From assembly GCA_011389965.1 (NCBI GenBank), contig JAABTF010000010.1, forward strand, positions 1-59,538: 59,538 bases of DNA. The letters run 5' to 3'. The notes beneath the pieces are model-generated. The model did not search any database, had not been told where the DNA came from, and saw only the letters and a list, made by a program, of their open reading frames with translations. Each line of letters begins with the position of its first letter. The first letter of the stretch is position 1. Position numbers and translations under genes: made by a program. Origin of the DNA: Halothiobacillus sp. GTDB taxonomy: Bacteria; Pseudomonadota; Gammaproteobacteria; Halothiobacillales; Halothiobacillaceae. Shown in pieces: positions 17,418 through 43,286 of the stretch.

Positions 17418-18692
17418 TCAGCCCTTGCGAGCGGCTGCCGCGGCATCGACGGACTCGTCGAGCAGTTCAAGGCCCCGGTCCAGTTCCTCTTCGCTGATGG
17501 TCAGCGGGGCGAGGAACTTGATCACCTGGTCATCGGCGCCGGCCGTCTCTGCCAGCAGGCCGCGCTTGAACGCTTCTGCAGAGACTTCGTTGCAGAAGTC
17601 CTCCTCGTCGGATTGCAGGCCCCAGATCATGCCCAGGCCGCGCACGTCGGAGATCAGGTCAGGGTGGCGATCGGCAATCGCCTTGAAGCGGGTCTCGACC
17701 TTCTTGCCCTTTTCGACCACTTCCTTGGAGAACTCGTCGGTGTCCCAGCGTTCCAGTGCGGCGGCGCCGGCGATAAAGGCCAGCGAATTGCCGCGGAACG
17801 TGCCGGTATGCTCGCCCGGCGACCACTGATCGATTTCCGGGCGCATCAGCACGATGGCCATCGGCAGGCCGGTGCCGATCGACTTGGAGATGGTGACGAT
17901 GTCGGGATAGATGCCTGCGCGCTCGAAGCTGAAGAAGTTACCGGTACGGCCGTTGCCCACCTGGATGTCGTCGACGATCAGCAGGATGTCTAGGTCCTTG
18001 CACATCTTGTCGAGCTTCTTGAGCCACTCGACGGAGGCCACGTTGATGCCGCCTTCGCCCTGGATGGTCTCGACGACGATGCCGGCCGGCAGGTCATAGC
18101 CCGAACTGGCATCCTCGTAGTACTGGCGCATCATGTCGATGCTGTCCATCTGGCCTTCGCCCGTGGGGTCGAAGTAGTTGTCGTACGGCATCTTGGTGAC
18201 GTTCAGCGGCACGCCGTAGAAGTCGTCGTGGTAGAACTCGTTACCGGTGACGGCCAGCGCGCCCAGGGTGTGACCGTGATAGGCGTTGGTAAAGGAGACG
18301 ATCTTGGAGCGTTCCTTGACCTTGCGGGCCAACTTCAGGGCCGTCTCGACGGCGTTGGTGCCAGTCGGGCCGACGAATTGGATCTTGTAGTCCAGGCCGC
18401 GCGGCTGAAGGATGGTTTCCTGCAGTTTCTTGATGAAGAGGTACTTGGCATCGGTCGCCTTGTCGAGGGCATTGGTGACGCCGTCACGCTCGATGAAGTC
18501 GATGATCGCCCGATTGACGGCCGGGTCATTGTGACCATAGTTCAGGGAGCCCGCGCCACCGAAGAAGTCGATGAAGGGCGTGCCATCCTGATCCCACATG
18601 GTGGCGTTCTTGGATTTGACGAAAATGGTCGGGAACGAGCGGATGTAACCGCGCACGTTGGACTCGTATTTCTCGAACAGGTCGATGTTCAT
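17418..18692 (-). CDS. ectB: Diaminobutyrate-2-oxoglutarate transaminase EctB
   Basis: First step of ectoine synthesis: transfers an amino group from glutamate to aspartate semialdehyde, giving 2,4-diaminobutyrate. The 424-residue class III aminotransferase starts MNIDLFEKYESNVRGYIRSF, the EctB N-terminus, with GPTGTNAVETALKLAR for PLP phosphate binding and the PLP lysine in TISKSIGTGLP. The frame is open upstream to 18758, but the family start is at 18692. It is the central gene of ectABC. Confidence 0.97.
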   Translation of the reverse strand: MNIDLFEKYESNVRGYIRSFPTIFVKSKNATMWDQDGTPFIDFFGGAGSLNYGHNDPAVNRAIIDFIERDGVTNALDKATDAKYLFIKKLQETILQPRGLDYKIQFVGPTGTNAVETALKLARKVKERSKIVSFTNAYHGHTLGALAVTGNEFYHDDFYGVPLNVTKMPYDNYFDPTGEGQMDSIDMMRQYYEDASSGYDLPAGIVVETIQGEGGINVASVEWLKKLDKMCKDLDILLIVDDIQVGNGRTGNFFSFERAGIYPDIVTISKSIGTGLPMAIVLMRPEIDQWSPGEHTGTFRGNSLAFIAGAAALERWDTDEFSKEVVEKGKKVETRFKAIADRHPDLISDVRGLGMIWGLQSDEEDFCNEVSAEAFKRGLLAETAGADDQVIKFLAPLTISEEELDRGLELLDESVDAAAAARKG

Positions 18693-18785
18693 CACAGGTC
18701 CTCGTCTTGAGCGTGAAAAGTGAAATAGATAATAGGCGCACGACGCGCCGCCGGCCACTTGGGATATGGCGGGCGGCGGCGTGGA

Positions 18786-33869: not shown

Positions 33870-34805
33870 ATGACTATGTCCACACGCCACTTCCTGAGTC
33901 TTTTCGACCTCACCGCTGACGAGTACCGCGCCCTGTTCGAGCGCGCGGGTCAGCTTCAGACTGCGCGTGAGCGCGGCGAGCGGCCCGACACGCTATCGCG
34001 GCGCGTACTCGGCATGATCTTCGAGAAGGCTTCGACCCGCACGCGGCTGTCGTTCGAATCGGGCATGGCCCAACTCGGCGGCTCGGCGATCTTCCTCTCG
34101 CCGCGCGACACGCAACTCGGGCGGGGTGAGCCGATCGAGGATTCGGCGCGTGTCATGTCGCGCATGGTCGATGCCATCATGATCCGCGCCAACGACCACG
34201 GCATGCTCGAGACATTCGCCGAGAACAGCCGCGTGCCGGTGATCAACGCACTGACCGACCGCAGCCACCCCTGCCAGTTGCTCGCCGATATCTACACCTA
34301 CCAGCGCCACCGCGGATCGATCGCCGGCAAGCGGGTGGCCTGGGTCGGTGACGGCTTCAACATGTGCCATTCATACATTAACGCGGCTCGCATGTTCGAC
34401 TTCGAGCTGACGGTCGCCGCTCCGTGCGGCTACGAGCCGGACACGGAGATCGTCGAGGCTGCCGGAGATCGAGTTCGCCTGGTGGAAACGGCTGCCGAGG
34501 CCGTGCAGGGCGCGGATCTGGTGGTCACCGATGTCTGGGCCTCCATGGGGCAGGAAGAAGAGCGCCAGCGCCGTCTGCGCGATTTCCACGGCTACCAGAT
34601 CAATGCCGATCTGATGGGGCGGGCCCAGCAGGACGCGCTGTTCATGCACTGCCTTCCGGCCCACCGCGGCGAGGAAGTCACTGCCGACGTGATCGACGGG
34701 TCGCAGAGCGTGGTCTGGGACGAGGCCGAGGCTCGGATGTACACCCAGCAGGCGTTGGTGGAATTCCTCATGCTGGGTGAGTTTCCCGGGGCGACAACCG
34801 CCTGA
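33870..34805 (+). CDS. argF: Ornithine carbamoyltransferase ArgF
   Basis: Joins carbamoyl phosphate and ornithine to citrulline. The 311-residue product has the carbamoyl-phosphate motif [33 protein letters not shown] and the catalytic [11 protein letters not shown]. The first ATG (33870) and a second two codons later (33876) are both possible starts. It follows argD, so both may be transcribed from the argD promoter region. Confidence 0.96.
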
Positions 34806-34821
34806 GGGGCGATGCGGGAAA

Positions 34822-34850
34822 ATGACATCATCACGCCCCATCCTTACAAT
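34822..34850 (+). promoter_or_regulatory. Predicted promoter of the iota-carbonic anhydrase gene
   Basis: ATGACA (34822-34827) and TACAAT (34845-34850) are exactly 17 bp apart, each one base from consensus. The start codon of the next gene is about 45 bp downstream. This makes the gene transcribable independently of argDF. Confidence 0.65.
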
Positions 34851-34895
34851 GAGGCCCAATCTGGCCTGATGCAGGCGAACCCGGAGATCTGATAC

Positions 34896-35462
34896 GTGAC
34901 CACATCCAGCCATCCGCACATCAGCGGTACTCAATTCATCGACGCGGATGCCGCGCCCCGGCACAAGCTAAGCCTCGGAGCGTCTCAACGAGAGACAAGC
35001 TACCCGGTCACTGGAACGGGCATGCCTCTGGCCGGCATGGCGTTTGACGTCCCGGCGAACGAGAGTTGTGAGGCCTGTGCTCCGGCCACTCGTCTTCTGG
35101 CGGAGCAGCTTTTCGAAGGATGGAATCGAGCGCTGCAGACCGGTGACGCCGAGAAGGTTGCCCTGCGTTATGCGGACGACGCCGTGCTGCTGCCGACGGT
35201 TTCCAACGTGCCGCGTACCGGCCACGACGAAATCCGCGATTATTTCGAGCATTTCCTCGAGAAGAATCCGGTTGGCTTCGTCGACACGCGCAACGTGAAG
35301 CTGGGCTGCAACAAGCTCACCGACGCCGGCACGTATACCTTTCGTGTCACCGACGGTGAGGAGACCGTGGACGTTCCGGCCCGCTATACCTTTGTCTACG
35401 AGCACCGCAATGGTCGGTGGGTGATCGTGCATCATCATTCCTCTCTGATGCCGCCAACCTGA
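34896..35462 (+). CDS. Probable iota-class carbonic anhydrase (COG4337/CaMKII-AD fold)
   Basis: A 188-residue protein whose last 130 residues are a SnoaL/CaMKII association-type cone fold. It has LFEGWNRALQTGDAEKVALRY, VLLPTVSNVPRTGHDEIRDYF, YTFRVTDGEETVDVPARYTF and ends with WVIVHHHSSLMPPT; the HHHSS (residues 179-183) plus MP signature is that of iota-carbonic anhydrases known from diatoms, cyanobacteria and proteobacteria. Unlike many bacterial homologues there is no signal peptide; instead about 58 residues precede the domain, with Cys58 and Cys61 in ESCEACA. The start is GTG with GGAG upstream. Cytosolic or carboxysomal location is inferred from the missing signal and from the nearby dab and csoS1D genes. 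Confidence 0.82.
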   Translation: MTTSSHPHISGTQFIDADAAPRHKLSLGASQRETSYPVTGTGMPLAGMAFDVPANESCEACAPATRLLAEQLFEGWNRALQTGDAEKVALRYADDAVLLPTVSNVPRTGHDEIRDYFEHFLEKNPVGFVDTRNVKLGCNKLTDAGTYTFRVTDGEETVDVPARYTFVYEHRNGRWVIVHHHSSLMPPT

Positions 35463-35481
35463 GTCGGCGCCTGACTGACCG

Positions 35482-35530
35482 GCACAACGCAAGACGGCGC
35501 GGGAAATTCCCGCGCCGTCTTGCGTTGTGC
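35482..35530. terminator. 49-nt near-perfect palindrome between convergent genes
   Basis: The sequence from 35482 to 35530 is a 24-bp perfect inverted repeat around a single central base. It lies between the carbonic anhydrase gene and the convergent NUDIX gene, so it is probably a bidirectional terminator, although neither side has a T-run. Confidence 0.65.
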
Positions 35531-35560
35531 GTGATGGCGACACCGATCTGCCGCAGGTGA

Positions 35561-36112
35561 TCAGCGCATTTTTCGCGTCTTGTCGACCATGCGAAGGGTG
35601 GACCGGCTGTTGTTGTAGCGGGCCACGAGAGGGAGGGGGATCCAGCGGAGCTCGAAGGATTCCTCGTTGCCGGGTACCGGCGTCTGGTCGTCGATCTCGA
35701 CCAGGTAGCGGATGTCGATATGTTCGTGGGGCTGGGCGTCCGGGTGCGGCTCCTGGGTGGCGTGGATATCGACGTCGAAGATCCCTTCACTGACCAGGCG
35801 GATGTGTTCGGGGGCGACGCCGGTCTCTTCGGCGCACTCCTTGAGCGCGACCATGCGCATATCGGTGTCGCCGTCGGCATGGCCGCCGGGCTGCAGCCAG
35901 CAATCGAGCTTGCGGTGATGCATCAGCAGCACCGCGGTGCGCGCCGGATTGACCACCCAGGTGGAGGCGGAGACGTGTGCCGGCAAGTGTTCGCGGTAAA
36001 AGGTGTCCGGGTGGGCGGCGACGAATTGGCGCGCGCGCTGGACGAAGGCCGCCTCGTCGAGGTGGCGTGTCTCGTAATGGTCGAGCTGGTCGAGGAGGTC
36101 GTTGCGATGCAT
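35561..36112 (-). CDS. NUDIX hydrolase
   Basis: A 183-residue NUDIX-fold protein beginning MHRNDLLDQLDHYETRHLDE. The NUDIX box is GGHADGDTDMRMVALKECAEETGV: the KE-C-A-EE-TG core is present, with Lys for the usual Arg and Thr for the first Glu, a pattern seen in the GGHADGD subgroup. The substrate is unknown. It starts 4 bp after the csoS1D stop and so forms a leftward csoS1D-NUDIX operon. A relic of the same gene lies behind the second csoS1D copy at 42590-42670. Confidence 0.88.
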   Translation of the reverse strand: MHRNDLLDQLDHYETRHLDEAAFVQRARQFVAAHPDTFYREHLPAHVSASTWVVNPARTAVLLMHHRKLDCWLQPGGHADGDTDMRMVALKECAEETGVAPEHIRLVSEGIFDVDIHATQEPHPDAQPHEHIDIRYLVEIDDQTPVPGNEESFELRWIPLPLVARYNNSRSTLRMVDKTRKMR

Positions 36113-36116
36113 GGGC

Positions 36117-36731
36117 TTAAGTATAAGCGGGATTCTTGATCGCGGCGATGGCGGCACGGGCCGCCTCTTCGACGTTCCCCTCGCTGCCGGCAATGGTCAG
36201 TCGGCCGTACTTGCCCACGGCGCGGACGTCGATGAGCGAAATGTTGGCGGCCTTCTCGGCCTGATTGGCAGCGTAGACGATGTAGCCGGCGGGTTCGACC
36301 TCGAGAATGAACATGCTCTGGTCGGGGAGGATCATGTTGCCGCGCCGGTTCTGACGGTTGATCAGGACGGTGTGGTCCGGCGTCATGCCCGTGATGATTT
36401 CCTGCCAGGCGATCTCGCAGGGCTGTCGCGCGGTTTGCTCTTGCCGGAGGTAGTCGAGGATGGTGTCGCCGGCCTGGACGACGTCGCTCTGGACGCGGTG
36501 GTGAATGACCATCGAGCCGAAGGCGCGCTCGACCACCTGCTGGGCGAGTCGGACGCTGGAGGACTTGAGCGCGATATCGGTCAACCGGTGGACGGCCATC
36601 CCCGGCGAGACTTCGACCCACAGACAGGCGTCTCCCGGAATCGGCAGGAAACCCTGGGACACCGTCGCCATGTATTCAGCCACTTGTGGCTGAAGCGAGT
36701 CGATGAAGACGTATGTCCGGAGTTCGATCAT
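36117..36731 (-). CDS. csoS1D: CsoS1D-like tandem-BMC carboxysome shell protein, copy 1
   Basis: A 204-residue tandem bacterial-microcompartment-domain protein. It begins [20 protein letters not shown] and has [23 protein letters not shown], then [14 protein letters not shown] in the second half and [38 protein letters not shown], the second BMC domain. CsoS1D forms stacked trimers with a large gated pore in alpha-carboxysome shells. No other shell gene is in the window. It is co-transcribed with the NUDIX gene and is convergent with nothing on its right; the LysR gene lies 145 bp upstream on the same strand. Confidence 0.93.
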
Positions 36732-36876: not shown

Positions 36877-37830
36877 TCAGCCGATCTTGAGGTAGTCTCC
36901 GCCGTGTTCCTTGAGAAAGGCGAGGAATTCGCGGGCGATGACCGAGAGGGCCTTACCGCGCGGGTAGACGATGTTCCAGTAACGCTCCAGAGGGAAGCCC
37001 TCGACGTCGAGCTTGACCAGTGGGCCAGCTTCGCTTTCCAGGTTGAGCGCATGCTCGGAGACCACGGAGATGCCCAGTTGTCCCACCACGGCATGTTTGA
37101 TCGACTCGTTGCCTTCCAGCACCAGACGTTGCTTGAGGCGGAGTCCGTGCTGGGCAAAGTGTTCTTCGACCTTGTGCCGGATGCCGGAGCCCGGCTCGCG
37201 CATGATGAATGGTTCCTCGGCGATGCGCTGGAGTGAAATGTTCCGTTCGCGGGCGAGCGGATGGTCACGGTGTGCGATGACCACCAGCGGATTAGGTGCG
37301 AACGGGATCATCTCCAGACCGAGCCCACTGTCGGGCACGTGACCGGTGATGTAGAGGTCCGAGAGATTTTCCTCGATCCGCTTGAGGAGCGTGTCCCGGT
37401 TGGAGACCTTCAATTCCATCTCGATGTCGGGGAACTGTTTGGCGAAATCCCCGAGGGCGAGCGGGGCAAAATACTTGGCTGTGGTGATAACCGAGAGGCG
37501 CAGCCGGCCCTTCTTGAGTCCTTTGAGGTCATTGAGCGACATCTCGAGGTTCGACAGGGCATCGATCACGTCGCGACAACCGCGGGCGACGAGATTGCCC
37601 ACCTCCGTCAGGTAGATCTTGCGGCCGATCTGTTCAAACAGCGGCATGCCAACTGTTTCCGAAAGGCTTTTTACCTGGGCGGACACGGTTGGCTGGGTGA
37701 GGAACAATTCCTCGGCCGCCCGCGTGAAGCTCCCCAGTCGGGCGACTGCCTCGACAATCTCGATCTGTCGCAGCGTGGCATGCCGAAGTAGATAACGCGC
37801 GTCGATCTGCCGGCCTTCATCACCTGTCAT
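36877..37830 (-). CDS. CbbR-type LysR transcriptional regulator
   Basis: A 317-residue LysR regulator with the N-terminal helix-turn-helix (SFTRAAEELFLTQPTVSAQV, residues about 34-53) and a CbbR-like effector domain (RLRLSVITTAKYFAPLALGDF, EMELKVSNRDTLLKRI, GSGIRHKVEEHF). It is divergent from dabB across 444 bp. The homologous arrangement in Halothiobacillus neapolitanus is called lcbR beside dabB2/dabA2. The likely effector is a Calvin-cycle or photorespiratory metabolite; that is inference. Confidence 0.92.
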   Translation of the reverse strand: MTGDEGRQIDARYLLRHATLRQIEIVEAVARLGSFTRAAEELFLTQPTVSAQVKSLSETVGMPLFEQIGRKIYLTEVGNLVARGCRDVIDALSNLEMSLNDLKGLKKGRLRLSVITTAKYFAPLALGDFAKQFPDIEMELKVSNRDTLLKRIEENLSDLYITGHVPDSGLGLEMIPFAPNPLVVIAHRDHPLARERNISLQRIAEEPFIMREPGSGIRHKVEEHFAQHGLRLKQRLVLEGNESIKHAVVGQLGISVVSEHALNLESEAGPLVKLDVEGFPLERYWNIVYPRGKALSVIAREFLAFLKEHGGDYLKIG

Positions 37831-38274
37831 TTTCTATTCCCCGAATTCTCGCTTTTCGCATAGATCCTATTCTATTCACTATCGTGACGTTCATCGATGG
37901 GATGCGGCCTTTTTTCCGGCACGCATCGCCTTGTGGCTCGGTCAGGAGGCGCCCAAATGCAGGCCATCCCATCGGAATTTCAATGGCAGTGCATTGATTT
38001 TCGTCTATACATGAACGAAGAGCGATGCAGGCGGCGACTGCCTTTATGGATGACCGAGATCCCGCCGTGGCCACGTTCCACGGGCATCGGGGACAAAAAT
38101 CGGCTGCTCTTTATTGGGCTCTGGCCTCGCAGTTTTCCTTGCATAGATGTAACTCAATGCAACTGGCCGGTAATTCGAATTGGTGCTGGGCCCGCGCCGT
38201 CACTACCTTGCACATCATGCAGCTAGGCCGTTCACCCGCGCTTGCTGTCAGTCATCCTTATCCGGAGAGACATC
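37831..38274. promoter_or_regulatory. Divergent control region of the LysR gene and dabBA
   Basis: A 444-bp intergenic region with lower GC than its surroundings. Near the LysR gene are the palindrome ATAGatcCTAT (37860-37870) and two more CTAT repeats (37872, 37879). Near dabB is an inverted repeat TTGCAT/ATGCAA with a 12-bp spacer (38139-38162). The octamer GCATAGAT occurs in both places (37858 and 38141). These are candidate LysR sites. No open frame within the region is convincing, and no unambiguous -35/-10 pair was found. Confidence 0.5.
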
Positions 38275-39933
38275 ATGGACACATTGATCACCTGGCCGAT
38301 TGCCGGAGCCCTGCTCTTGCTCATGCCGCTAGTCTTGTTACTGGCGGCCGTGCCGTCCACGTTGGGCGGGGTAGAAACCGCCCGTCGCTACCGCCAACGG
38401 GTCCGTTGGGCGGCCATCGGCGCAATGGGCCTCTCCATCGTGGCCACTTTGGCCTATCTGGCGGGTAGCCAGGGGCATCTCACGGCAGCCGCTCTCCCGC
38501 TCCCGGGCGGTATCGGGGCCCTCGCACTCTCCGTGCAGGTCGACCAACTCACTCTCGCTCTGGCGGTACTCGTGGCGTTCGTCGTCACTCTGATCGCCCG
38601 CTACAGCGAGAAGTACCTGGACGGCGACCCTCAGCAGGCTCGCTTCTTCCGCCTGCTGGCCCTGACCGCCGGCTTCTTCATGCTGGTGGTGATCTCGGCG
38701 AACCTCGCTCTGTTCACGCTCGCGATCATCCTGACCGGCTTCTCCCTGCACAAGCTGCTGCTGTTCTACTCGGATCGACCGCGCGCGGTCATGGCCACGC
38801 ACAAGAAGTCGCTGTTCAGCCGCAGTGCCGACGCCTGCCTGATCGGCGCCACCATCCTGATCGGCCATCAGGTCGGCAGCCTCCAGTTCGACGCGATCGT
38901 CGAGTGGACCCGCGCCCAGGACGGCATGCCGCTGGGGATGCACGTCGCGGCCTTCCTGATCGTGCTCGCCGCCATCCTCAAGAGTGCCCAGTTCCCGTTC
39001 CACGGCTGGCTCCTGCAGGTAATGGAGGCCCCGACGCCGGTATCGGCACTGATGCACGCGGGCATCGTCTATAGCGGCGCCATCATCGTGCTGCGGACCA
39101 GCGAGTTTCTGCTCGCCCAGGGCAGCGCGCTGTTCCTGCTGGCCATCGTCGGCCTGGCGACGCTGGTGATCGCCTCCCTGGTCATGCTCACGCAGACCGC
39201 GGTCAAGTCCTCGCTGGCCTGGTCGACCACCGGTCAGCTCGGCTTCATGCTCCTCGAGTTGGGGCTGGGTCTGTTCGCCCTCGCGCTGCTGCACCTGATC
39301 GGCCATTCGCTCTACAAGGCGCATGCCTTCCTCTCCGCCGGCAGCATCCCTGACCAGCTGCGTCAGCCGAAACCGGCGGCCCGCCGTCGCATCGGCTTTG
39401 GCGGCTGGCTGGTCACCGTGGCCGCCAGTCTCGCGCTGACGGCCGCGATGGCCGCCGCCCTCGGCTTGCAGGTCAGCGAGGAGCCGGCACTGCTTGCCCT
39501 GGTCGCGATCGTCGCCCTGGCCGTGGCGCAACTGGTGCTCAAGGCGATCAACGTGGCGCCGACGGCCGGCGGGATCGGCCGCGCCGCCGGGCTGGCCGCG
39601 ATCATGGCCGCGGTCTACTTCGCGCTGCACGAGGCGTTCGTAAGCCTGTTCGGCAACACGGTCGGCGCGATCCCGGACACCCTGACGCTGGCCTACGGCG
39701 CGATGCTGGCGCTGACCACCATCAGCTTCCTGTTCCTCGCCTGGCTGCAGGGCCCCGGCCGAGACCATTTCAACGGCTCGGGCCGAAAGGGTCTGTTCGT
39801 GCACCTCTACAACGGGCTCTATGTCGACCTGCTGGTCGAGCGCGCTGCGCACCGCCTCTGGCCGAACAAGGTCGGCCAACACCGGACGCGCCATGACGCC
39901 ATCAAGGCACAGGCGCCCGTGAGTGCCCAATAA
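38275..39933 (+). CDS. dabB: DabB, cation-translocating subunit of the DAB inorganic-carbon pump
   Basis: A 552-residue proton-conducting membrane protein related to NuoL/MrpA antiporter subunits; in the DAB complex it couples ion flow to CO2 hydration by DabA. It has about 14 hydrophobic helices, with the family segments SVQVDQLTLALAVLVAFVVT and QFPFHGWLLQVMEAPTPVSALMHAGIV and a conserved LIGHSLYKAHAFLSAG. The ATG at 38275 follows GGAGAG. dabA follows 36 bp downstream. The partner regulator gene and gene order match the DAB2 type of Halothiobacillus, without the small gene that lies between dabB2 and dabA2 there. Confidence 0.92.
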   Translation: MDTLITWPIAGALLLLMPLVLLLAAVPSTLGGVETARRYRQRVRWAAIGAMGLSIVATLAYLAGSQGHLTAAALPLPGGIGALALSVQVDQLTLALAVLVAFVVTLIARYSEKYLDGDPQQARFFRLLALTAGFFMLVVISANLALFTLAIILTGFSLHKLLLFYSDRPRAVMATHKKSLFSRSADACLIGATILIGHQVGSLQFDAIVEWTRAQDGMPLGMHVAAFLIVLAAILKSAQFPFHGWLLQVMEAPTPVSALMHAGIVYSGAIIVLRTSEFLLAQGSALFLLAIVGLATLVIASLVMLTQTAVKSSLAWSTTGQLGFMLLELGLGLFALALLHLIGHSLYKAHAFLSAGSIPDQLRQPKPAARRRIGFGGWLVTVAASLALTAAMAAALGLQVSEEPALLALVAIVALAVAQLVLKAINVAPTAGGIGRAAGLAAIMAAVYFALHEAFVSLFGNTVGAIPDTLTLAYGAMLALTTISFLFLAWLQGPGRDHFNGSGRKGLFVHLYNGLYVDLLVERAAHRLWPNKVGQHRTRHDAIKAQAPVSAQ

Positions 39934-39969: not shown

Positions 39970-42438
39970 ATGACTCTGGCAACTCAAGCACAGCACAGCA
40001 CCGCCCAGACGCCCGAACGCCTCGATCTCGAGCAGGTTCGCCAGCTGGCCGACGCCGCGGGCCGCAAGATCGCTCCCGTCTGGCCGCTGGACTCGTTCGT
40101 TGCGGTCAACCCCTACCTCGGCCTGATCGATCAGTCGTTCAGCCAAGCGAGCGGTTACCTGGGCGCGATCGCCGGCGAACGGACCTTCATGGACCACGAC
40201 TGGTACGCCGCCCAATGGCGCGACGGGCGCCTGACGCGCGAGCACATCGAGCAAGCCGTCGAGCAACTCGGCCACCCGGTAGCCGTCGAGACGGTCATCA
40301 GCGCCCTCGAGTCGCCCCGGAAGACCGGCAGCCCCGTGCCTATGCTGGTCGAGAAGCTCGACCGGCCCGGCGCCGCGCCGATCTCGATCTTCGTGGTCGA
40401 CCAGATCAGCCATTTCCTTGCCGCCCATTTCGACCGCGGCCAGGCCATCTGGACCACCCCCGACGAGTCGGAATCGCTGTACACCGCGTGGCGTGAATAC
40501 ACCCTGATCGACCGCAGTGCGCGCGCCGCCGGCCTGGGCGAGGCACGGGGCTACCTGCGCGAGGTACCCGCCGACCCGATCGAGGCCATCACTTGGGCGA
40601 TCGAGACCCTGCAGCTGCCGGCATCCGTACACGCCGACTACCTGTTCGCCGCGCTCAAGTCGATTAACGGCTGGGCGGCCTACTGCCGCTACCGCCAATG
40701 GGGAGCCGAACTGACTGGCGGCACCTGTGACGACCTCACCGACCTGCTCGCGGTGCGCCTGGTCTGGGAGGCCTTGGCGCTCAAGGCCACCGGCAGCACG
40801 GCCATTCGCCGCGAATGGCAGCGCGAGATCGAACGGCATCACGAGGCCATTGCCGCAGCGGAAAACGAGGCGGTGATCGACGAGGTCATGCTCACCGCCA
40901 CCGAGATCGCCTTCCGCGCCCCCGTGATCCGGCATTTCCGCGAGACGGAAACCAAGCGCGCCGAGGCCGTCCGTCCGCCGATCCAGGCCGCCTTCTGCAT
41001 CGACGTGCGTTCGGAAGTCTTCCGCCGCCACCTGGAGACCAGCTACCCCGGTGCGCAGACCATCGGTTTCGCCGGCTTCTTCGGCGTGCCGCTGGAGTAT
41101 CGGCGCCTGGGCGAGTCGCAGTGCCGCACGCACACGCCGGTGCTGCTCAACCCGGGGGTCGAGGTCGCCGACCGCGTCGAGGGCGACGAGGATCTCGCCA
41201 CCCGACGCGAGCAGCGGGTCGGCAATACCCTGTCGTGGAAGCAGTTCAAGCTCTCGGCCGCCTCCTGCTTCACCTTCGTCGAGTCCGCCGGCCTGACCTA
41301 CATCCCGAAGCTGATCGGCGACACGCTTGGCTGGCACACAGATCCGCCGCCGCCTGACCAGGCCGGCCTGACCGACGAGGAGCGCGCCCGAGTCCATCCG
41401 GCACTCGCCTCCGAGGCCGACCTCGACGCCCGCGTGGGCATGGCCGAAGGCATCCTGCGCGGCCTGGGCCTGACCGGGGAGCTCGCCCCGATCGTGCTCC
41501 TGGCAGGGCACGGCAGCACCACGACCAATAACCCGCACCGCGCGGGCCTGGACTGCGGTGCCTGCGCCGGCCAGACCGGCGAGGTCAGTGCCCGCGTGGC
41601 CGCCGACCTGCTCAATGATCCGGCAATCCGCCCTGGGCTCGCCGAGGGGGGCATCGAAATCCCTGAGGACACGCGTTTTGTCGCCGCGCTGCACGACACC
41701 ACCACCGACGAGGTCGCCCTGCTCGACCTCGAGGAAGAGGCGGTCGACCGGGCGAAGCTCGACGAACTGCGTCAGGCACTGGGACAGGCTGGGGATCTCA
41801 CCCGCCTAGAGCGGCTGGTCACATTGCGCGAGAACCTGAGCGACAACCCGGCGGACCGCGAAGCGGCACGCAAGTCCGTCACGCATCGAGGCCGGGATTG
41901 GTCCGAGGTGCGTCCGGAGTGGGGTTTGGCCGGCAACGCCGCCTTCATCGCCGCGCCGCGCGAGCGGACCCGCGACCTGGATCTGGGCGGCCGGTCGTTC
42001 CTGCACGATTATGACTGGCGTCAAGACGAGGGATTCGGGGTGCTTAACCTGATCCTGACCGCGCCGCTGATCGTGGCGAGCTGGATCAACCTGCAGTACT
42101 ACGGTTCCACCGTGGATAACGAGCGGCAGGGTTCCGGCAACAAGGTATTGCACAACGTGGTCGGTGGCCTTGTCGGGGTGCTCGAGGGCAACGGGGGCGA
42201 CCTGCGGGTCGGCCTGTCGATGCAGTCATTGCACGATGGCGAGACCTGGCGGCACGAGCCGCTGCGCCTGGCGGCTTTCGTCGAGGCCCCGGCCGAGGCC
42301 ATCGACGAGATCGTTGCCGGCAACGAGGGCCTGAGGCACCTGGTCGACAATCGCTGGCTGACGCTGCTTCGGATCGCCGACGACGGCACGGTGTCGCGTC
42401 GGCGGGCCCACGGCGAATGGGTGGCCGAGGCGGCCTGA
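39970..42438 (+). CDS. dabA: DabA, carbonic-anhydrase-like subunit of the DAB inorganic-carbon pump (DUF2309)
   Basis: An 822-residue cytoplasmic, membrane-associated DUF2309 protein. The beta-carbonic-anhydrase-like zinc site is complete: Cys343 and Asp345 in FCIDVRSE, His514 in LAGHGSTTTNNP, and Cys529 in LDCGACAGQTG, at spacings matching H. neapolitanus DabA. The N-terminal PLDSFVAVNPYLGL is the usual family start. The ATG is preceded by AGGAGG. With DabB it converts CO2 to bicarbonate in one direction. A terminator follows at 42466. Confidence 0.94.
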   Translation: MTLATQAQHSTAQTPERLDLEQVRQLADAAGRKIAPVWPLDSFVAVNPYLGLIDQSFSQASGYLGAIAGERTFMDHDWYAAQWRDGRLTREHIEQAVEQLGHPVAVETVISALESPRKTGSPVPMLVEKLDRPGAAPISIFVVDQISHFLAAHFDRGQAIWTTPDESESLYTAWREYTLIDRSARAAGLGEARGYLREVPADPIEAITWAIETLQLPASVHADYLFAALKSINGWAAYCRYRQWGAELTGGTCDDLTDLLAVRLVWEALALKATGSTAIRREWQREIERHHEAIAAAENEAVIDEVMLTATEIAFRAPVIRHFRETETKRAEAVRPPIQAAFCIDVRSEVFRRHLETSYPGAQTIGFAGFFGVPLEYRRLGESQCRTHTPVLLNPGVEVADRVEGDEDLATRREQRVGNTLSWKQFKLSAASCFTFVESAGLTYIPKLIGDTLGWHTDPPPPDQAGLTDEERARVHPALASEADLDARVGMAEGILRGLGLTGELAPIVLLAGHGSTTTNNPHRAGLDCGACAGQTGEVSARVAADLLNDPAIRPGLAEGGIEIPEDTRFVAALHDTTTDEVALLDLEEEAVDRAKLDELRQALGQAGDLTRLERLVTLRENLSDNPADREAARKSVTHRGRDWSEVRPEWGLAGNAAFIAAPRERTRDLDLGGRSFLHDYDWRQDEGFGVLNLILTAPLIVASWINLQYYGSTVDNERQGSGNKVLHNVVGGLVGVLEGNGGDLRVGLSMQSLHDGETWRHEPLRLAAFVEAPAEAIDEIVAGNEGLRHLVDNRWLTLLRIADDGTVSRRRAHGEWVAEAA

Positions 42439-42671: not shown

Positions 42672-43286
42672 TCAGGAAAACGCGGGATTCTCCACCGCGG
42701 CGATGGCGGCCCGGGCGGCCTCGTCGACATCGCCTTCCGTGCCGGCGATGGTCAGGCGGCCGTACTTGCCCACGGCGCGCACGTCGACCAGCGAGATGTT
42801 CGCGGCTTTCTCGGCCTGGTTGGCGGCGTAGGCAATGTACCCGGCGGGCTCGACTTCGAGGATAAACATGCTCGTCATCGGCAGCATCATGTTGCCCGAC
42901 CGGTTCTGGCGGTTGATCAGGACGGTGTGGTCCGGCGTCATGCCGCGGATGATCTCCTGCCAGGCAATCTTGCAGGGCTGGCGCTCGGTCTGATCGCGGC
43001 CGAGGTGTTCCAGGATGGTGTTGCCGGACTGAATGACATCGCTTTGGACGCGGTGGTGGATGACCATTGAGCCGAAGGCGCGCTCGATCACTTGTTGGGC
43101 GAGCCGGACGCTGGAGGCCTCGAGGGCGGCATCGGTCAGCCGGTGGACGGCCATGCCCGGCGAGACCTCCACCCACAGGCAGGCGTCACCCGGGATCGGC
43201 AGGAAGCCCTGAGACACCGTCGCCACGTACTCCGCCAGCTGGGGCTGGAGCGAGTCGATGAAGACGTATGTCCGGAGTTCGATCAT
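42672..43286 (-). CDS. csoS1D: CsoS1D-like tandem-BMC carboxysome shell protein, copy 2
   Basis: A 204-residue paralogue of the protein at 36117-36731, equal in length and differing at perhaps 25-30 positions, mostly conservative. It starts [20 protein letters not shown] and keeps both BMC domains. A visible difference is [12 protein letters not shown] for [12 protein letters not shown] before the second domain, near the part of CsoS1D that lines the trimer. The start at 43286 is the family start; a longer frame to 43313 exists. It lies convergent with dabA. About 245 bp upstream, to 43532, hold no gene that I can support. Confidence 0.93.

Follow-up and report, generated by a model that had tools for sequence, protein, structure and literature searches.

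The window, that is, the whole stretch of 59,538 nucleotides of Halothiobacillus sp. DNA that was analysed, carries a gene for a carbonic anhydrase (CA) of the iota class with an N-terminal extension that resembles a shell-binding repeat of CsoS2. We propose that this enzyme is a shell-docked cargo of the alpha-carboxysome and a second CA beside CsoSCA. This reading, in which activity, encapsulation and docking on CsoS1 are inferred, is given a probability of about 0.6. What sequence comparison indicates is the class of the domain, the lack of a signal peptide, the conservation of the extension and its co-occurrence with CsoS2. In the proposed mechanism, the domain (residues 70-187) would interconvert bicarbonate and CO2 and make CO2 from bicarbonate inside the carboxysome. 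The ISGT (residues 9-12) and VTG (residues 38-40) motifs of the extension would dock on the inner face of the CsoS1 hexamers, at the site used by CsoS2 itself, via CsoS1 His79. The enzyme would be held in the shell and kept from the cytosol; a CA active there would short-circuit the pumping of bicarbonate by DAB. It would act beside CsoSCA in the organism studied here and replace CsoSCA in some Thiomicrospiraceae. A broader proposal is more tentative and stands somewhat below even odds: the CsoS2-mimicking peptide would be a stand-alone cargo tag and the whole clade would dock by [IV][ST]G, giving many chemolithoautotrophs, H. neapolitanus included, a second carboxysomal CA of unrelated fold.

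Features of the iota-CA gene and of its surroundings in the window. L numbers are iota-CA loci.
Feature	Position	Strand	Basis or remark
Promoter-like site ATGACA-17-TACAAT	34822..34850	+	10/12 consensus matches; 0.3 expected in shuffles of region 34700-35600
GGAG, probable ribosome-binding site	34883..34886	+	9 nt before GTG; read directly in the sequence
Iota-CA gene with N-terminal extension	34896..35462	+	GTG start, 188 aa
First motif ISGT (residues 9-12) of ISGTQFIDAD	34920..34931	+	[IV][ST]G[TS] in 52/52 unique extension proteins
Second motif VTG (residues 38-40)	35007..35015	+	[IV][ST]G at matching place in 39/52
Cys58-Glu-Ala-Cys61	35067..35078	+	Cys61 kept in 52/52 extension proteins
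Iota-CA / SgcJ-EcaC / CaMKII_AD domain (residues 70-187)	35103..35456	+	family and structure matches
Cys138	35307..35309	+	covaries with Cys61
HHHSS class motif (residues 179-183)	35430..35444	+	HHSS invariant in 35/35 alignment rows
NUDIX hydrolase	35561..36193	-	PF00293 3.9e-11; near iota-CA also in L025, L026
csoS1D, pseudohexameric carboxysome shell protein	36117..36731	-	PF00936 5.3e-9; near iota-CA in L025-L027, L144-L147
CbbR-like LysR regulator	36877..37830	-	LysR domains; homologues near iota-CA in Thioalkalivibrio loci, L144-L147
dabB	38242..39933	+	PF00361 8.7e-35; adjoins dabA
dabA, inorganic carbon pump subunit	39970..42438	+	PF10070 4.8e-262
Second csoS1D copy	42675..43286	-	85% identical to the first (tblastn)

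The lack of a signal peptide, already claimed in the first-pass annotation, follows from the position of the start codon. An in-frame TGA (34890-34892) lies two codons 5' of the GTG at 34896, leaving no other upstream start, so a signal peptide is ruled out. The extension is not hydrophobic as judged by eye, and the iota-CA genes of Guyparkeria and Thioalkalivibrio also start with GTG at the same place. A near-consensus promoter had been proposed as well; the site is present and speaks weakly for a promoter.

The neighbourhood described in the same annotation, with DAB and csoS1D genes, is as claimed (Table), and a second DabA is found at the window end. argF is also close to the iota-CA gene (arg names were assigned by eye). 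The two csoS1D copies flank the dabBA pair. The host genome is Guyparkeria-like, as same-genus genomes share contig positions with Guyparkeria records. It has an alpha-carboxysome by gene content, with a cso operon on contig C9 made up of cbbLS, csoS2, csoSCA, csoS4A/B and three csoS1 genes, followed by ParA- and CbbO-like genes. The iota-CA gene is on another contig and is not a member of this cso locus; in G001 and G003, two genomes of the genus that each consist of one contig, it is likewise distant from csoS2. Because the genome already has csoSCA, the iota-CA is an additional CA, and its role as a CsoSCA replacement in this genome is ruled out.

The extension has been compared in 52 unique proteins (58 before merging of duplicates), with 43 other iota-CAs as controls (45 minus L015 and L078, which have no recognisable domain start; L133 and L134 are included). 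In the window protein it is about 69 residues long, rather than the 58 residues first described. A first [IV][ST]G[TS] is close to the N-terminus in every extension protein. A second [IV][ST]G is found 27-29 residues past the first in 39 of the 52 and is missing from that place in 13; anywhere later in the extension, it occurs in 45/52. Further conserved positions are Ser26 (52/52), Arg32 (47/52), Asp51 (52/52), and Cys61 and Pro63 (52/52). The Cys pair noticed at first is present as Cys58 and Cys61, the first of which is not conserved: the pair takes the CxxC form of the window protein in 19 sequences and a CxC form in 13, and Cys61 stands alone in 20. In the 35 rows of alignment A1, Cys61 and Cys138 occur together in 28, are jointly missing from 7 and never occur singly, a covariation as expected for a disulfide or another contact. 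The pattern suggests a disulfide in both exported and extension-type iota-CAs; an oxidising lumen of the carboxysome would be in keeping with it.

The extension also marks a clade. In a tree built on the CA domain alone, without the extension, by a quick method on 117 columns and with many forks unresolved, the 52 proteins fall on one side of a branch with an SH-aLRT of 97. Synonymous differences exceed non-synonymous ones in the extension in 7/7 Thioalkalivibrio pairs, and in 6/7 the domain shows the larger excess. As a separate observation, the window domain is placed with Thioalkalivibrio (SH-aLRT 98), at the end of a long branch (0.41), and not with other copies of the same genus, which may reflect transfer or fast evolution.

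The middle repeats (M-repeats) of CsoS2 carry (V/I)(T/S)G triplets spaced eight residues apart, a Tyr, Cys pairs and Lys, and the VTG and Tyr are required for shell binding (PMC11365436). In the C-terminal region, CsoS2-C, an [IV]TG touches His79 of CsoS1A (PMC10484944), a residue present in CsoS1 of the window's genome. The extension was scored with a matrix of the third M-repeat element, built on 94 unique sites; these come from 24 entries for CsoS2, 23 of them distinct, one genome being represented twice. The background consisted of 1030 proteins, left from 1078 after removal of those with HHSS, with at least 12 [VI][TS]G or with a match to three terminal fragments of CsoS2; they are the longest non-overlapping ORFs, a set that includes some shadow ORFs and misses some genes. 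The window HISGTQFIDADAA is equalled or beaten by 1/1030 of these proteins. The outscoring protein (P0002, window 17418-18758, minus strand), which resembles a class III aminotransferase such as EctB, was rejected as a chance match in a folded domain. The top 1% of the background distribution is reached by 24/24 rows of the Halothiobacillaceae/Thioalkalivibrio/Chromatiales type vs 3/28 of the other, Thiomicrospiraceae-type rows. Matrices made from all CsoS2 [IV][ST]G sites or from the C-terminal [IV][ST]GTxG element discriminated poorly.

Profile comparison draws the same line within the clade. For the Halothiobacillaceae/Thioalkalivibrio type, ISGTQFIDAD is aligned with VTGTEYLSSE of the M-repeat at a score of 21.6; the highest of 40 column shuffles reaches 12.3. 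The whole extension clade reaches 16.6 (shuffle maximum 14.8), and the Thiomicrospiraceae type gives no signal with this profile (12.1, with shuffles up to 16.3). With the CsoS2-C profile, the scores are 21.2 for the Halothiobacillaceae type (maximum 14.7) and 14.8 for the Thiomicrospiraceae type (maximum 22.5). A likeness to CsoS2 over about 10 residues thus beats the controls for the window's type, and the clade as a whole has the four-residue core only. This core is unspecific, as [VI]SGS occurs by chance inside the signal peptide of 7/43 other iota-CAs.

With so short a motif, the [IV][ST]G likeness could also be a convergence, and the extension could tether the enzyme to Rubisco. There is a precedent in CsoSCA, whose N-terminal peptide binds Rubisco (PMC12918739; PMC12646314, the latter adding direct shell contacts), and the residues conserved beyond [IV][ST]G, namely Ser26, Arg32 and Asp51, would suit a function of that kind. 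Nevertheless, for the Halothiobacillaceae type at least, it is the shell-binding repeat of CsoS2 that the extension matches best by profile. Comparison with the N-terminus of CsoSCA gives no profile similarity, since between 7 and 23 of 40 shuffles do equally well, in what is a weak test with 2 CsoSCA sequences. We regard a Rubisco tether as unlikely.

Docking on the shell is further suggested by the genomes in which the extension occurs. A contig scan gave 64 iota-CA loci, 22 with the extension (L016-L037) and 42 without, extension-type loci being enriched by the retrieval, since two of its six peptide patterns came from the extension. The former belong to Thioalkalivibrio, Guyparkeria, Halothiobacillaceae, other gammaproteobacterial MAGs and Thiomicrospira sp. 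WB1; the latter are from enterobacteria, Burkholderiales, actinobacteria and others, and many of their N-termini look like signal peptides (by eye, without a count). CsoS2 is present in 21/22 genomes of the named extension-type loci vs 0/28 genomes representing 28 of the 42 non-extension loci (Fisher 3e-13; this test and those below are not corrected for relatedness, and the samples overlap in some genomes). The exception is one MAG that is 84% complete (L036/G195). csoSCA is also found in 21/22 genomes of the extension-type loci.

Two larger samples, searched with the whole window protein, extension included, as query, agree with this. In the family of the L037 genome (62 genomes), 25 have an iota-CA match, 23 of them extension-type, and CsoS2 is present in 25/25 of these genomes vs 22/37 of those without iota-CA (p 1.4e-4). 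Among genomes of this family that have CsoS2 and lack csoSCA, iota-CA is found in 10/10, vs 15/37 of those with both (p 7.6e-4). Eight of these ten have an extension-type iota-CA and two an FKBP-like domain in place of the extension. Among 369 Gammaproteobacteria, with a threshold of E <= 1e-25, CsoS2 is found in 9/10 genomes with an extension-type iota-CA vs 0/8 with another strong iota-CA (p 4e-4), four of these eight being classed by their N-terminus and four by a match start at residue 51 or later. In this sample, 72/369 genomes bear CsoS2 and 9/72 of these have the extension-type iota-CA, a patchy distribution.

Gene order varies. In Thioalkalivibrio, the iota-CA gene ends the cso locus in 11/11 cases, after csoSCA-csoS4AB-csoS1-ParA-cbbQ-cbbO-CbbR; csoS2 is outside the L017 locus and only partly inside the others examined. 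In L144-L147, iota-CA lies with csoS1D/CbbR near cso genes, and in three genomes (L144, L145 and L146) two iota-CAs flank csoS1D beside CbbR. Of these, the copies L136-L138 have no second motif and a long branch (0.87), and may have a second function. The two FKBP-like fusions lie among cso genes (L149:9205-9921, minus strand, and L150:8877-9566, plus strand, in the csoSCA-lacking genomes G096 and G087); they have no [IV][ST]G extension and branch outside the extension clade (SH-aLRT 99), which may point to an independent recruitment.

In Thioalkalivibrio thiocyanoxidans ARh2 (L023:10001-11115), tandem iota-CA genes follow the cso locus. The first has the extension; the second begins MTSYPVAALAAALLVLVSGTASA, by eye a signal peptide, which holds VSGT by chance. 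The two N-termini are what would be expected if the N-terminus decides location. The first-pass annotation had suggested that the extension could be a targeting peptide, and this suggestion fits the comparisons: the clade tracks CsoS2 genomes, the [IV][ST]G motifs are present, and a signal peptide takes the place of the extension in the tandem paralogue.

These associations could also arise if the enzyme were a free cytosolic CA, supplying bicarbonate or balancing pH, with an extension used for instance in oligomerisation or regulation and a co-occurrence with CsoS2 due to shared lineages. The compared genomes are indeed those of related chemolithoautotrophs, the gene does not lie near the cso operon in the window's genus and in H. 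neapolitanus, and predicted cytoplasmic CAs of carboxysome genomes have been tallied in a 2024 survey (PMC10880623). The same survey, however, finds them “a bit alarming”, calls such CAs a risk and doubts their assignment. Because a cytosolic CA short-circuits a carbon-concentrating mechanism (CCM) (PMC10614612) and the window's genome has DAB genes, physiology would demand encapsulation. In addition, the extension separates CsoS2-bearing from other genomes in the class-wide sample too, and the gene stands beside cso genes in Thioalkalivibrio and Thiomicrospira-like genomes. A cytosolic role thus appears improbable, to about the same degree as a Rubisco tether. What speaks against shell docking itself is the shortness of the motif, the chance occurrence of its core in signal peptides, the lack of the second motif at its place in 13 extension proteins, a spacing and a Tyr position that differ from CsoS2, the Thiomicrospiraceae type with its core only, the MAG without CsoS2, the patchy distribution, and the distance from the cso operon in the window's genus and in H. 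neapolitanus.

H. neapolitanus is the model bacterium for alpha-carboxysomes. The single-contig genome G012 is assigned to this species by its CsoSCA, which aligns with chain 9g4t over 509 residues without a mismatch and also matches the H. neapolitanus enzyme 2fgy. It encodes an extension-type iota-CA (L140:8800-9339, minus strand) away from the cso genes, which shares 60% identity with the window protein across 181 aligned positions. Among 10 genomes of the genus to which H. neapolitanus belongs, the extension type is confined to G012; a distant hit is found in G017. The 2008 report of Dou (cited in PMC2760150) is said, by its title, to describe H. neapolitanus mutant carboxysomes lacking carbonic anhydrase, so that the iota-CA did not visibly make up for the loss. 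This description suggests low expression, a conditional role or no role of the iota-CA in H. neapolitanus. For a proteomic study of carboxysomes from this species, a term search of the main text gave no such protein (PMC9040747).

The family and structure matches of the domain are far above chance level. Residues 70-187 match CaMKII_AD (2.5e-20), NCBIfam TIGR02246 SgcJ/EcaC (1.4e-19, above the family cut-off) and PDB 3h51 (1.5e-34), the X. campestris protein named an iota-CA (PMC8425729) on whose homology the fold assignment is based. The solved iota-CA 7c5x is matched at 3.5e-15 by profile A1 of 35 relatives and is absent, at E <= 1, from a single-sequence search with the window protein; 7c5v was not among the hits. 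PMC8425729 gives T106, Y124 and S199 as catalytic residues of AspCA. The (H)HHSS motif near the C-terminus defines the class (PMC8425729); HHSS, like LL-x-T-x-S...R...DYFEHFL, is invariant in 35/35 relatives. The motifs on which the first-pass annotation had based its assignment to the iota class, VLLPTVSNVPRTGHDEIRDYF, PARYTF and WVIVHHHSSLMP, are all present, WVIVHHHSSLMP being followed by two residues, PT, and the assignment holds. The protein is the sole TIGR02246 match in the window's genome (85% complete). By its domain, HHSS and homology to a solved iota-CA, it belongs to the iota class (SgcJ/EcaC, CaMKII_AD), for which CO2 hydration is the predicted activity. That it is an NTF2-like protein without CA activity is very improbable: TIGR02246 is named an oxidoreductase family, NTF2-like folds have many functions and the metal use of iota-CAs is disputed (PMC8425729), but HHSS is invariant, the protein is close to 3h51 and 7c5x, the clade includes genomes with CsoS2 but without csoSCA, and a Thiomicrospira iota-CA is reported to be carboxysomal (PMC12628692).

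The idea of a carboxysomal CA put forward in the first-pass annotation had its CCM neighbourhood right and is not the first of its kind, since a carboxysomal iota-CA of Thiomicrospira was reported in 2024 (10.1128/aem.01075-24, as cited in PMC12628692 and PMC12646314). Genes for iota-CA and CsoSCA are also described together in a Hydrogenovibrio (PMC10880623). No paper describing CsoS2-like motifs in an iota-CA came up in the literature search, in which the Greek letter could not serve as a term and the 2024 Thiomicrospira paper was out of scope. Likewise, a CsoS2-like extension defining a clade, an exported tandem paralogue and an H. neapolitanus orthologue were not met in the literature searched, which did not extend to the tables of PMC10880623, where H. 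neapolitanus may be listed as well. How cargo enters alpha-carboxysomes has been worked out in few cases, Rubisco via CsoS2 and CsoSCA via Rubisco and the shell (PMC11365436, PMC12918739, PMC12646314). If the proposal is true, the short tag by which this small enzyme docks on the shell would be an encapsulation signal taken from nature, of use in engineering. The puzzle of the 2024 survey would be solved too, as some predicted cytoplasmic CAs would sit in the carboxysome.

The proposed cargo enzyme can finally be set beside the systems that it resembles. The carboxysomal iota-CA of Thiomicrospira is of the same enzyme class and probably shares the clade and the extension, to judge from the family search. 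Thiomicrospira-type loci lie near csoS1D/CbbR and cso genes, their identity with the reported enzyme being inferred. There, however, the iota-CA replaces CsoSCA, whereas csoSCA is present in the window's genome. CsoSCA, the carboxysomal beta-CA, is likewise a CA of carboxysome bacteria whose N-terminal segment is flexible, but it has another fold and its N-terminus binds Rubisco; both genes occur in the window's genome. Other bacterial iota-CA-like SgcJ/EcaC proteins, such as X. campestris 3h51, have the same domain (43-61% identical over the aligned part in the 42 loci) but no extension, and CsoS2 is found in none of 28 host genomes. With the M- and C-repeats of CsoS2, the extension has the [IV][ST]G core in common. 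With the third M-repeat element, the Halothiobacillaceae type also shares the pattern [IV][ST]G[TS]x[FY][IL], after which an acidic residue is frequent. In contrast to the CsoS2 triads, spaced by eight, the extension has one or two motifs 27-29 residues apart (two, 29 residues apart, in the window protein); in place of the invariant Tyr it has Phe, as in the window protein, or Gly; and it is attached to an enzyme. By sequence, the extension is therefore CsoS2-like and not a CsoS2 repeat.
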